DNA of 64,000 bases from a virus: positions 1 to 64,000 of IMG/VR virus record IMGVR_UViG_3300033148_004740. One strand, written 5' to 3'. This document shows, one piece after another, positions 37,201 to 53,920 of the stretch (position 1 is its first letter; every line of letters starts with the position of its first letter). The notes below the pieces were generated by a model. It ran no database searches. It saw only the letters and a program-made list of their open reading frames with translations, and was not told where the DNA came from. Made by a program: the position numbers and the translations under genes.

Positions 37201-38016
37201 TTAGGCCTCTTCTGGGTGATACACCTGGAAATAGAGCTTGTACATCTCACGGTGCTCAGAGGCTCCGTCAAACCCGTCTATGTCCTTGTATTTATGCATC
37301 CATTCCTTGACCCGCTCGTCAATGTTTCCTCGGATCAAATAGCTGTCAAACTGATGCCAGGTATGGATACCTAGACTAGCAGAGATGTCTCGGAGGTTGA
37401 TCCACCTCTCATTCTTCTTCCCTAGATTGGGACCACCACCACCACAGAATAGGTTTCGAGCTCCACGGTGCCAGATCACATTCTCCTGCTTGATGTGCTC
37501 ATAGACCAGCTTAGTGTCCATAATCTGGTGAGGATGGTTCTTCAGATGCTCATGTGGATTACCAGCATAAACAGTATCGGCGTAGCGCTTGAAGAGCAGA
37601 CGCTTGTGATACTTATCAAGGTTCTCCCAGACGCGCTCTGGTCCCTTGTAGGAGACTGAGCGACACTGGAACCCAATCATATCCTTCCCACGTCCCTCAG
37701 CTAAATCTACGAGGTCTGAAAGCCTTTTCATAGTCTTCTCTTCGAAGAGCTCATCTGGATCAGAGACCAGGGCCCAGCTGTCAGCCGGGACATGCTTGAG
37801 GTAGTTGTTCCTCTGCTGAGAGAAGTTGTCGTTCCAAGGACGGAGGAAGAACTTGAGCTTTGGCTCTTTTTCCTCCCAGTTTCTCATATAGAAGATAGTA
37901 TCATCTACTGAGCCACCATCTACAATAACTGCCTTGTCTACATAAGGGAGATATCGGCGCAAGCAGCGGACTGTCTCTGACAGTCTATTCTGTGTCATAG
38001 AACAGTAAGTAATCAT
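37201..38016 (-). CDS. Family 2-like glycosyltransferase
   Basis: A 271-residue GT-A enzyme. The N-terminal nucleotide-binding part carries VIVDGGSVDDT and the metal motif region SDPDELFEE near 85-93, as in WaaE/KdtX-type beta-glucosyltransferases. The C-half has Arg/His-rich and Trp-rich segments. It is the last gene of the glycan block, followed by the promoter of the fibre operon. It would add a sugar to a lipid-linked or protein-linked acceptor; the donor sugar is unknown. Confidence 0.8.
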   Translation of the reverse strand: MITYCSMTQNRLSETVRCLRRYLPYVDKAVIVDGGSVDDTIFYMRNWEEKEPKLKFFLRPWNDNFSQQRNNYLKHVPADSWALVSDPDELFEEKTMKRLSDLVDLAEGRGKDMIGFQCRSVSYKGPERVWENLDKYHKRLLFKRYADTVYAGNPHEHLKNHPHQIMDTKLVYEHIKQENVIWHRGARNLFCGGGGPNLGKKNERWINLRDISASLGIHTWHQFDSYLIRGNIDERVKEWMHKYKDIDGFDGASEHREMYKLYFQVYHPEEA

Positions 38017-38017
38017 C

Positions 38018-51958: not shown

Positions 51959-53920
51959 TTAGACCTCTTCTATCCTTAGTCTTTGATTGCCTGTTCTTTC
52001 CAGGTGATCGATACATGAGTTAACAACCTCTGACGGCTGAATGATCTTCCAGCAGAGCTCACCAATGCTACAGCCCTTGTACCAGCAATCCCAGGTTCCC
52101 ATATTTTGTATACAGAATGTAGTACTATTTTCGACCGTAATATCATATACATACTCATCCCGACGATCGGAAAGCTCAATCTTTTTGATTGGAACATATA
52201 GATAATCTTCATCAACTATGTGTCTACTCCACGTCGCCTGTTGATTAGGAATATATACTCTGTAGATGATTGCATCCTGCTTGTAATTAGTATGATGTTT
52301 TCTCTTGTATATCCGAGACCAGATACCAAACCTAGTCAGTAGCTCTTGAGTTCCATAAGCCATCAGACGAGAAGCTGTACTCAGAACTTTATTATCCTTA
52401 TCTTGATAACCGTCTCCTTGTAGATAGCCAGTAATAAAACTTTCAATCGCAATATCACTAGCATTCCATAGAAGAAAAGGAATCTCCTTTTGGACCGCTC
52501 TTCTTTTTCCAAAGAAAGTATCTATATACTCAACAAGAGGCTGCGAATAAATTTCCACCCTAGTAGAATTGTCCTTAGTAGACGGATAGACTCCAACTGT
52601 TGCCGAATATTTGGAGCGACCAAAGCCTCTTAGGGTCTCAATAATCTGTTCTTCATGTGAGCCTACAGTAAAGACAACGGACTTACGATCTGGCCGTAGA
52701 TGACCCTCCGCTGCATAAAGTCCCAACACTTGATATGTAAGCAGATCAACCTCTGGAAGAATAGGATCTGCCTTGTTCCGAGGAACACACAAGAAATCAT
52801 TATCGGTTAACTCTTCTGCTGGAATCCATTCTCTGTTCGCAGTAAAGTTTTTTCTACGAAAGGCCGATGATGAGCCCTTAACGGCAAGCATTTTATGGTC
52901 CTGTGTCACAGTAATTGGCTCGTTTGAGCCAAAATATTCTATGTCATAGAGCTTTCTACCTTTGCGTAAATTCTTATGAACCTTAGTAATTTTGTTCCAA
53001 TTGGAGTCGGTTGTTTTAACAGTTTGCCCGACTTCTAGATCCTGGATTTCTCGGTATCCACTTGCTGTTAAAACTAAGCTCTCCTTAACTACACAAGGAC
53101 ACGGGTTGTACTGGTCACCTTTCCAAACAGCTACAGCCTTGTTGTAGTGGTTGATACGGGCAGCAGGATGTGTAGGACCAAAGTAAGATACTGTGGGGAT
53201 ACCAAGAGCCCCTGCAATATGGAGAAGGGACGAGTCAGGGCAGAGGACCAGATCACATGCAGCAGTGATAGCAGCTATCTCCCGAACCTTCTTGTCCTTT
53301 AAGAGAAGACCTCCAGGAAGGTTATCCCACATGACATTGCTTTGCCAGTCACTCTGGTGGGTAAAGATAATTGGTTTTGCTTTGATTCGCTGACCTAACA
53401 TGACCAAGATCTCTTTGAGCTTTCTATGGTCAAATGATCTGATCTTATTACTGGCAAATGGCTGTACTGCGATCTTGGGATAGAAATGATATTGTCTGAC
53501 TACATCCCGTCCTTCTTCTAGCTCCCCTTTCGTCAGATAGATGTGAGGAACAGAGTCTTCTAGTTTGACACCAGCTGCATTAGCAAACAGATCAATACGA
53601 TTGATTGGAGGGTTCCCGTGAACCTCATACTCTGTGCACGGACAATGCAGGTCTAAGACTGCATCAAACTGATCTCTGACTAAATGGTTCTTGTCTACGA
53701 ACCCGTTGATGTCTGGGTTAAACATAAGAATATCAACTAGAGCTCCGCCAAGATAGCGTGTATCTGTGGCTACTATGATCTGACCATCAGGGAACTCTTT
53801 CTTGAGGGCTCTGATAGTAGGGGTCAGCATAATCACATCACCGATACCCTGACCACGGATCACACAGATCTTAGGGGCACCGGTAGAGATCAGTCTGCGA
53901 AGACGGTCTAAAATTTTCAA
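51959..53920 (-). CDS. Glycosyltransferase family 9 (heptosyltransferase-like), intein-containing
   Basis: A 653-residue precursor with an intein at residues 276-611, leaving 317 aa for the enzyme. GT9 features: IRGQGIGDVIMLTPTIRALK at the N-terminus, LVLCPDSSLLHIAGALGIPT and YFGPTHPAARINHY in the C-terminal nucleotide-sugar domain, followed by a CPC...KGC...C cysteine cluster that is interrupted by the intein. The start is TTG with AAGGA upstream. The first gene of the glycan operon in transcript order. Heptose or a similar sugar from an ADP-activated donor is typical of the family; the actual substrate is unknown. Confidence 0.88.
   Translation of the reverse strand: MKILDRLRRLISTGAPKICVIRGQGIGDVIMLTPTIRALKKEFPDGQIIVATDTRYLGGALVDILMFNPDINGFVDKNHLVRDQFDAVLDLHCPCTEYEVHGNPPINRIDLFANAAGVKLEDSVPHIYLTKGELEEGRDVVRQYHFYPKIAVQPFASNKIRSFDHRKLKEILVMLGQRIKAKPIIFTHQSDWQSNVMWDNLPGGLLLKDKKVREIAAITAACDLVLCPDSSLLHIAGALGIPTVSYFGPTHPAARINHYNKAVAVWKGDQYNPCPCVVKESLVLTASGYREIQDLEVGQTVKTTDSNWNKITKVHKNLRKGRKLYDIEYFGSNEPITVTQDHKMLAVKGSSSAFRRKNFTANREWIPAEELTDNDFLCVPRNKADPILPEVDLLTYQVLGLYAAEGHLRPDRKSVVFTVGSHEEQIIETLRGFGRSKYSATVGVYPSTKDNSTRVEIYSQPLVEYIDTFFGKRRAVQKEIPFLLWNASDIAIESFITGYLQGDGYQDKDNKVLSTASRLMAYGTQELLTRFGIWSRIYKRKHHTNYKQDAIIYRVYIPNQQATWSRHIVDEDYLYVPIKKIELSDRRDEYVYDITVENSTTFCIQNMGTWDCWYKGCSIGELCWKIIQPSEVVNSCIDHLERTGNQRLRIEEV
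52088..53095 (-). other. LAGLIDADG intein in a GT9 glycosyltransferase, ending in Asp
   Basis: A 336-codon insertion starts with Cys (CVVKESLVLTASG) and ends YDITVENSTTFCIQNMGTWD before the extein Cys of CWYKGC. Blocks A, B (TVTQDHKM), two endonuclease motifs (LGLYAAEG and YLQGDG) and F are present. The last residue is Asp (GAT) rather than Asn and the one before it is Trp rather than His. Either the intein uses an unusual last step, or splicing is slow or lost. The insertion splits the conserved PCPC/WYKGC cysteine motif. Confidence 0.9.

Follow-up and report, generated by a model that had tools for sequence, protein, structure and literature searches.

A glycosyltransferase core with exchangeable sugar cassettes beside the virion genes of a phage clade, a candidate cytoplasmic glycosylation system for the phage particle

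In Cluster J mycobacteriophages, genes for glycosyltransferases (GTs) and methyltransferases lie between the capsid and connector genes, and excerpts of the source (PMC3706429) describe 8-10 genes, including several GTs and S-adenosylmethionine-dependent methyltransferases, set amid virion structural genes and varying between relatives. Capsid and tail-tube glycans are known from mycobacteriophages (Freeman 2023, as cited in an excerpt of PMC12619734), and the same excerpt counts GTs among the core genes of a further lineage of large aquatic phages. Cyanophage clusters of the P-SSM2 type unite epimerase/dehydratases, cupins and several GTs and are polymorphic between related viruses (PMC7824862, excerpts). 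The capsid N-glycans of chloroviruses are made by a virus-encoded pathway without endoplasmic reticulum enzymes and combine a conserved inner glycan with virus-specific outer sugars (PMC7019647, excerpts). The present report concerns a locus of 20 successive minus-strand genes, positions 37201-53920 of the IMG/VR virus record IMGVR_UViG_3300033148_004740. The source record is linear, 126,472 bp long and may be a fragment; its bases 1-64000 were analyzed here and are referred to as the window.

As in Cluster J, the GTs and methyltransferases of this locus are embedded in a run of virion genes. The Cluster J loci are smaller, belong to another lineage with other hosts, and have no sugar-nucleotide enzymes described in the excerpts; beyond them, the present locus has a conserved GT9-GT4-GT4 core (GT9, GT4c and GT4b), exchangeable sugar-nucleotide cassettes and inteins within GTs. 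When 50,697 phage records were searched by tblastn with two queries only, GT4c (14 records) and the GT9 gene (18 records, via its intein region), no Mycobacterium phage was among the organisms counted. The cyanophage clusters differ in being interpreted as producing host outer polysaccharide, with no fixed GT core beside virion genes described in those excerpts, and the chlorovirus pathway differs in belonging to a eukaryotic virus with an unrelated particle. A fixed GT9-GT4-GT4 core shared across a clade, with exchangeable cassettes and with virion genes as neighbours, was not met in a limited literature search.

Relatives were found by scans with the major head protein, the actin-like protein volactin and GT4c; open reading frames of at least 85-90 residues were read, and all records may be fragments. 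The non-redundant core-bearing set comprised 12 phages, designated G000 (the window), G002, G008, G017, G019, G036, G046, L204, L206, L208, L209 and L213. All 12 contained the GT4c-GT4b pair, followed by an exchangeable sugar cassette, and GT9 lay ahead of the pair in every phage except L209, where a gene identified by eye as a ribonucleotide reductase (L209:7845-9992) occupies this place between volactin and GT4c. GT4b was 37-58% identical among seven phages, and the best Protein Data Bank (PDB) match of GT4c was the chlorovirus GT B736L (1.2e-7). Volactin was directly upstream of the core in nine of the 11 phages whose records reach there (not in G019 or L213); at this position L204 is cut by the contig end, and L208 matches volactin only in part. 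A homologue of the virion-side gene o55 lay upstream of the core in all 10 core-bearing phages whose records extend that far. Homologues of virion protein 1 were found there in eight phages; the G019 record stops short, and G036 has an o55 homologue and no detectable homologues of virion proteins 1-3.

The conservation of core and cassette was examined by an all-versus-all protein comparison of nine phages, with thresholds of at least 35% identity, 60% of length and an E-value of 1e-10. A homologue in another phage was obtained for 21 of 24 core proteins (mean 4.5 phages) and for 31 of 112 cassette proteins (mean 0.40 phages). No homologue was obtained for the doubled GT9s of G014 and G020 or for the GT4c of G046, which an intein splits; these are the three core misses, and the insert together with the length rule probably accounts for the last. 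Among 95 cassette proteins from the eight other phages, the commonest Pfam models were Methyltransf_24 (10), short-chain dehydrogenase/reductases (SDRs) of the GDP-mannose dehydratase/epimerase type (9), GT2 (8), DegT (7) and hexapeptide transferases (6); the G046 cassette adds a PIG-L deacetylase and a sulfotransferase. Sulfotransferase-like genes were noted in several cassettes, at L204:6541-7215 (Pfam E 0.016), L184:9813-10559 (0.0026) and L185:5503-6213 (5.7e-9), which suggests that some of these phages may carry sulfated sugars. Certain cassette genes shared between phages are more alike than the cores, as illustrated by the window and G008, whose SDRs are 69% identical and whose GT4c proteins are 39% identical; this would be expected from exchange, although such enzymes also evolve slowly.

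Divergence of the conserved GTs followed that of the virion genes. Mantel correlations (n = 8) with volactin were 0.83 for GT4c and 0.81 for GT4b, and those with virion protein 1 were 0.78 and 0.90, respectively; permutation p values across these comparisons ranged from 0.0002 to 0.0032. Of 14 listed records with distant relatives of GT4c, four, all from unrelated phages, were examined, and in three of these the relative lies within or next to a head-gene operon. In Mae-JY09 the relative lies shortly downstream of the major capsid gene, in S-CBS4 it lies between portal and head genes with a methyltransferase nearby, and in TJE1, a phage of the Gram-positive Tetrasphaera, it belongs to a sugar block ahead of the terminase, portal and capsid genes. 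Given the position of the locus behind virion-side genes, the tracking of virion genes by the core and the GT4c relatives at head-gene operons, the virion is favored as the target. We therefore consider it somewhat probable (roughly 55%) that the locus encodes a modular system for glycosylating the phage particle in the cytoplasm, with a conserved inner glycan and changeable outer sugars.

Several observations weigh against this assignment. The core is not invariant, given that G014 and G020 have no GT4 pair (ahead of Cas4 each has, besides volactin, a doubled GT9 and four more genes) and that L209 has no GT9. The record G035, whose volactin is 75% identical to that of the window, shows no GT locus over the 20 kb examined and no GT9 in 59 kb, and GT9 was present in only one of 50 further volactin records. 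Nor are the cassettes wholly different, as second-tier genes recur in two sets: methyltransferase MT4-GT2-GT2 in the window and L213, with parts in G017, G019 and G008; and a methyltransferase-like, a GT4-like, an unassigned and an SDR gene in G002, L204, L206 and G046, with parts in L208, L209 and G036. The fourth phage with a distant GT4c relative, S-EIVl, has it adjoining the primase, outside the structural genes, and further distant relatives (27-30%) occur on contigs of Verrucomicrobia metagenome-assembled genomes. The C-terminal tail of the major capsid protein, considered as an acceptor, gave no signal: the seven GT-bearing phages were unremarkable beside 16 other sequences from the clade or related to it, whose GT status was mostly unassigned, and clearly shorter capsid proteins were present only in the more distant Moorella phage MTATph1 and three of the others. 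The GT9 of the window belongs to the lipopolysaccharide (LPS) heptosyltransferase family (best NCBIfam match heptosyltransferase III, 41.2 bits against a cut-off of 170.2). Finally, the records may all be fragments. What they show directly is the gene content, the arrangement in relatives, the divergence of the core alongside virion genes and the inteins with their matching intein-free sites; from these we infer the virion as target, the acceptor, the sugars, the timing and the splicing.

A minimal model can be proposed for such a system. The GT9-GT4-GT4 genes share a gene run with the virion proteins and would presumably be expressed late together with them; their products would build the conserved inner glycan in the cytoplasm, with a virion protein as the probable direct acceptor. 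It would then be extended and decorated by the second tier (a methyltransferase and two GT2s in the window) and the exchangeable cassette. The combination of a nucleotide-sugar 4,6-dehydratase with a cupin and a DegT enzyme is indicative of an amino-deoxyhexose, which in the window would be made from a host nucleotide sugar by the 4,6-dehydratase, the cupin epimerase or ketoisomerase and the DegT aminotransferase. The ATP-grasp enzyme may N-acylate this sugar and up to five methyltransferases may cap hydroxyls. A cassette swap would change the coat and leave the core in place. The window GT9 would be active only after its intein had been spliced out.

A serious rival, unlikely but far from negligible, is that the enzymes act at the cytoplasmic face to remodel or lengthen the LPS core of the host, or a comparable glycan linked to lipid, with export of the product by a host transporter; released virions would then not be trapped on debris, or rivals would be unable to adsorb. 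Sets of GT9 and GT4 are typical of LPS-core loci, and enzymes of the LPS-core type, to which GT9 belongs, act on the cytoplasmic side and do not require a flippase of their own. The family of the window GT9, the pairing of GT9 and GT4 without a dedicated flippase, and the resemblance of the exchangeable cassettes to O-antigen loci all agree with this proposal, as does the interpretation of similar cyanophage clusters as producers of outer polysaccharide (PMC7824862, excerpts). Export genes were searched for in 11 records (nine locus-bearing phages, the near-identical twin contig described below and G035) or in 16 (these and five more), with 14 genomes as controls. No match was obtained for the Wzx flippase PF01943 (0/11 records; controls 13/14), the flippase family PF13440 (0/16; 14/14) or the initiating sugar-phosphate transferase PF02397 (0/11; 9/14; the WecA family was not searched), and no Wzy polymerase PF04932 exceeded the cut-off (0/16; 9/14), a single sub-cut-off match in G002 having two internal stops and lying far from the locus. 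None of 136 locus proteins from nine phages had two or more hydrophobic segments on the Kyte-Doolittle scale, the mark sought for multi-pass membrane proteins. A Wzx/Wzy system is thus disfavored in the stretches covered, and the lack of export genes stated in the first-pass annotation was borne out. Its conclusion that a cell-surface polymer was unlikely for this reason was too strong, since modification of the LPS-core type needs no phage flippase and is untouched by these negatives. What argues against the host surface, besides the absence of an initiating transferase, flippase or polymerase above cut-off, is the place of the locus in the virion gene run, the divergence of the core with virion genes and the GT4c relative ahead of head genes in a phage of a Gram-positive host.

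Two further explanations were considered. Virus-encoded GTs do hypermodify DNA (Pyle 2024, as cited in an excerpt of PMC12619734), and the GTs of the locus could in principle glycosylate modified phage bases. This is very improbable: the thymidylate synthase/hydroxymethylase family PF00303 was absent from all 11 records (controls 9/14; Tet/JBP and other base-modifying families were not searched), the locus lies on the virion side, and variable outer sugars with five methyltransferases would be excessive for base modification. Just as poorly placed is a small-molecule or secreted glycoside of the infected cell, attached to neither virion nor envelope. TylF-like methyltransferases and ATP-grasp ligases occur in pathways of the secondary-metabolite type, and the locus has one of each; a second kind of cyanophage cluster has also been interpreted as a capsule decoration or secondary metabolite system (PMC7824862, excerpts). 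Against such a product, no polyketide, peptide or other scaffold enzyme was recognized among the 20 genes, no multi-pass membrane protein is encoded, and the conserved GT core diverges with the virion genes.

The first-pass annotation had suggested a glycan on the two giant fibre-like proteins encoded downstream of the locus; a virion glycan is still the best reading, whereas the fibres as default acceptor were set aside, because relatives show no such linkage between fibres and locus. In the nine phages for which the whole interval from the GT locus to the Cas4 or primase gene was available (G000, G002, G008, G014, G019, G020, G046, L204 and L209), giant fibres were present in the window only. 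L206 has one 1067-residue fibre-like protein in an interval incomplete at its far end, G036 has large repeat-like proteins upstream of the locus instead, and G035 has fibre-size genes (728, 769 and 2710 residues) downstream of volactin and no GT locus there. The 2407-residue fibre gave only partial matches in other records, and the Ser/Thr content of the two fibres is ordinary (16.6 and 17.5%, vs 17.3-19.2% in three virion proteins). Given the missing linkage in relatives, a conserved virion protein is the more likely acceptor. The o55 protein was not adopted as acceptor or lectin: its model is a beta sandwich (predicted local distance difference test score, pLDDT, 69.8) whose top PDB rows are carbohydrate-binding modules at Z ~7, equivalent to background for such models, and the protein had no viral match at E <0.001. 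Another fibre-like frame (1374 residues open), with repeats in common with the 2407-residue fibre, was noted at ~100112-102082 of the source record of the window.

The GT9 gene of the window is interrupted by an intein, missed in the first-pass annotation, that comprises a splicing domain and a LAGLIDADG endonuclease flanked by two GT9 parts. Its landmarks are Cys276, the TxxH block (block B) at residue 337, LAGLIDADG motifs at 398 and 495, and Asp611 followed by Cys612. The N-terminal Cys, TxxH block, +1 Cys and two LAGLIDADG motifs of such an intein are thus all present. The usual, though not universal, His-Asn end is replaced by Trp-Asp before the extein Cys, both in the window and in G008, which has an intein at the same site (46% identical). 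Amitai is said to have reported in 2004 the splicing of inteins with C-terminal Gln or Asp. GT9 homologues of G002, G036 and L204 have no intein at this site and read CPCFY, YPCWY and CPCWF, respectively, and the more divergent GT9s of G017, G019 and G046 are likewise intein-free. In G046 and L208, GT9 is free of an intein and GT4c holds one, at the same site in both phages, within the E-x7-E motif; these inteins have His-Asn ends, before Ser and Thr. An intein thus interrupts a core GT in four of the 12 core-bearing phages (twin contig left out), at two sites. The GT9 intein is a homing element and not part of the glycan function. Inteins were seen elsewhere in several of the intein-bearing records. 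One example interrupts the window gene for DNA polymerase III alpha (5693-9502, plus strand; PF14890 34.3 bits, cut-off 35.8; PF14528 28.8 bits, over cut-off), the PHP domain of this polymerase being encoded separately (4702-5706).

Mycobacteriophage inteins likewise occupy conserved and active-site motifs of phage proteins or lie close to them, although those described in the excerpts of PMC5050341 are in terminase, RecB/Cas4, recombination directionality factor (RDF), nucleotidyltransferase, DNA methylases, primase and portal; the main text of that paper nowhere uses the stem 'glycosyl'. A limited full-text search on inteins in glycosyltransferases and in phages turned up no description of one in a phage glycosyltransferase. 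A doubtful extension is that the homing inteins in the two core GT genes help cassette exchange in a serotype-switching device with a fixed inner-core machine and exchangeable outer-sugar cassettes. In co-infecting relatives, core genes that lack an intein would be cleaved by the endonucleases at the cassette edge, and repair would copy the intein and the adjoining cassette together.

The features of the window are collected in the table below. Gene starts at the locus are longest-open-reading-frame choices. Adjacent locus genes mostly overlap, and no intergenic gap is longer than 13 nucleotides across 25037-63976, from the virion genes through the locus, on one strand. Given E-values down to 6.5e-69 and the recurrence of the architecture in other phages, the locus is not a chance assembly. 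The gene order is volactin, the 20 glycan-type genes, two small proteins that each have a single hydrophobic segment (Kyte-Doolittle), the two giant fibre-like proteins and a Cas4-like gene. Structural genes of the window (terminase, portal, major head protein, sheath and baseplate wedge) are of the contractile-tailed type, and the module is collinear with that of MTATph1; Acinetobacter ME3 and Bacillus KLEB27-3 match it more weakly. MTATph1 has six genes (~3.5 kb) between its match to virion protein 2 and the primase, five hypothetical and none annotated as a sugar gene; in the window this same interval is taken up by the run from volactin to the Cas4-like gene. Promoters (21 found, 26.2 in shuffled sequence) and terminators (11 and 13.4, respectively) inside the locus were below the shuffled expectation, and so their counts are uninformative.

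Features of the window in and around the glycosyltransferase locus
Feature	Coordinates	Strand	Support or remark
Two giant fibre-like proteins (2407 and 1419 aa), downstream of locus	25037..36531	-	not conserved locus partners
Cassette: GT2 glycosyltransferase GT2a	37201..38016	-	PF00535 48.6 bits; 55% identical in G008
Cassette: methyltransferase	38018..38752	-	PF08241 35.6 bits
Cassette: no class given; claimed GT unsupported	38733..39548	-	PF00535 E 0.28
Cassette: methyltransferase	39548..40153	-	PF08241 64 bits
Cassette: ParB-like protein	40157..40744	-	our own motif reading only
Cassette: methyltransferase	40744..41400	-	PF08241 44 bits
Cassette: possible GT4-like glycosyltransferase, weak	41364..42356	-	PF00534 E 6.9e-4, below cut-off; phrog_2170 E 0.0071
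Cassette: TylF-like methyltransferase	42353..43036	-	PF05711 39.2 bits (cut-off 23)
Cassette: RmlC/FdtA-like cupin (epimerase or ketoisomerase)	43011..43463	-	PF14667 45.7, PF00908 44.7, PF05523 32.2 bits
Cassette: small HAD-type phosphatase	43420..43839	-	PF00702 22.3 bits, under cut-off 26.4
Cassette: ATP-grasp ligase (PRK12767/PylC-like)	43829..44764	-	PF21360 50.4, PF15632 46.1 bits; NF009405 176.6 (cut-off 390)
Cassette: DegT-type sugar aminotransferase	44748..45866	-	PF01041 233 bits; TIGR03588 PseC 154 bits (cut-off 423.5)
Cassette: all-beta protein, possibly propeller	45841..46770	-	DUF4915 only, E 0.016; low-confidence, mostly beta model
Cassette: nucleotide-sugar 4,6-dehydratase-like SDR	46716..47702	-	PF01370 183 bits; TIGR01181 187.6 bits (cut-off 365.1)
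Second tier: GT2-like glycosyltransferase GT2b	47674..48414	-	itself sub-threshold
Second tier: GT2 glycosyltransferase GT2c	48408..49016	-	PF00535 39.8 bits; 14-bp deletion in twin
Second tier: methyltransferase MT4	49016..49579	-	PF08241 28.9 bits (cut-off 21.2); homologues in G017, G019, L213
Core gene 3: GT4 glycosyltransferase GT4b	49581..50699	-	PF00534 27.3 bits (cut-off 26.4)
Core gene 2: GT4 glycosyltransferase GT4c	50699..51958	-	PF00534 52.4 bits (cut-off 26.4)
Core gene 1: GT9 glycosyltransferase (heptosyltransferase-like), intein-interrupted, 653 aa	51959..53920	-	PF01075 51.2 bits (cut-off 22)
Intein in GT9 gene, residues 276-611 (336 aa)	52088..53095	-	PF14890 40.0 bits (cut-off 35.8), PF14528 51.0 (22.5)
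Volactin, actin-like family	53934..54932	-	PF25216 208 bits (cut-off 35), residues 1-329 of 332
Virion-side genes o55 (unassigned), o56 and three virion structural proteins, same gene run as the locus	55358..63976	-	phrog_19683/21108/20243 'virion structural protein'

The about 20 consecutive genes of the first-pass annotation are thus all present, and the classes it gave them were mostly right. Pfam supports its SDR, aminotransferase, cupin, ATP-grasp enzyme and five methyltransferases (38018, 39548, 40744, 42353 and 49016), with a weak sub-cut-off match for the HAD protein (43420), which also has sub-cut-off NCBIfam matches to NF046079 and TIGR01689, of the BT0820 and EcbF-BcbF types. Five of its eight GTs exceed the Pfam cut-off (37201, 48408, 49581, 50699 and 51959) and a sixth, GT2b (47674), is supported through a 47%-identical homologue, L213:13503, that matches GT2 (PF00535) at 1.2e-9. 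The match of 41364 is weak, and 38733 as a GT gave a best E-value of 0.28 and no PDB or PHROG match. The description of the locus as complete was not upheld, since no sugar-1-phosphate nucleotidyltransferase was recognized among the 20 genes and the linear record may be a fragment.

The SDR is nearest to dTDP-glucose 4,6-dehydratases (PDB 6bi4, 2.3e-41) and the aminotransferase to enzymes of the PseC/DesI/QdtB type (PDB matches including QdtB, 2.6e-32); given that both fall under their equivalog cut-offs, no exact sugar is assigned. The cupin has a 48% identical counterpart in G008. The all-beta protein at 45841 gave no family in Pfam, NCBIfam or PHROG profile searches, and as a recurrent part of the locus it was rejected: homology to look-alikes in G002, L204 and G019 was unsupported (hhalign probability 0.8%; single-sequence model pLDDT 50). 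The 40157-40744 gene, inside the sugar cassette, has a motif resembling the ParB/Srx fold; its product gave no family in Pfam, NCBIfam or PHROG and nothing credible in a further profile search, and it may be of an amino-acid kinase type. As search handles, the window GT9 returned the twin contig only and the DegT enzyme no viral relatives. The twin, IMGVR_UViG_3300033153_006701 (L001), is 99.87% identical over 15.7 kb; a 14-bp deletion (L001 ~15334; window 48574-48587) truncates its GT2c gene and may be a real variant or an assembly error.

Volactin is an actin homologue described from Haloferax volcanii, where its biology is that of archaeal cell shape; the main text of the volactin paper (PMC10869688) has no words beginning with phage, virus or viral. 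At least 536 viral contig stretches were found here to encode volactin, as do two huge phages, LR745208 (485 kb) and LR756511 (595 kb). Homologues of the window core GTs lay beside volactin at six of 80 volactin loci (twin included; some loci cut by contig ends), which, together with the single GT9 among the 50 further records, rules volactin out as a general marker of GT loci. A separate group of volactin-bearing phages, G040, G041 and G043 (L187, L191 and L189, respectively), has one or two GT9-like genes and a small gene resembling, by eye, a HAD phosphatase within ~4.7 kb upstream of volactin, in a gene order different from that of the window clade.

Inteins in glycosyltransferases, at two sites in two enzymes of one pathway, widen the usual range of intein targets past DNA and nucleotide metabolism. 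Should the serotype-switching proposal be true, a selfish element would drive variation in the antigenic type of a virus particle. If the locus does glycosylate the virion, one phage clade would have an O-antigen-like coat of core and variable sugars made in the cytoplasm, which would explain why sugar pathways adjoin virion genes in some large phages, and GT9-GT4-GT4 beside virion genes would be a single marker making virion glycosylation testable.

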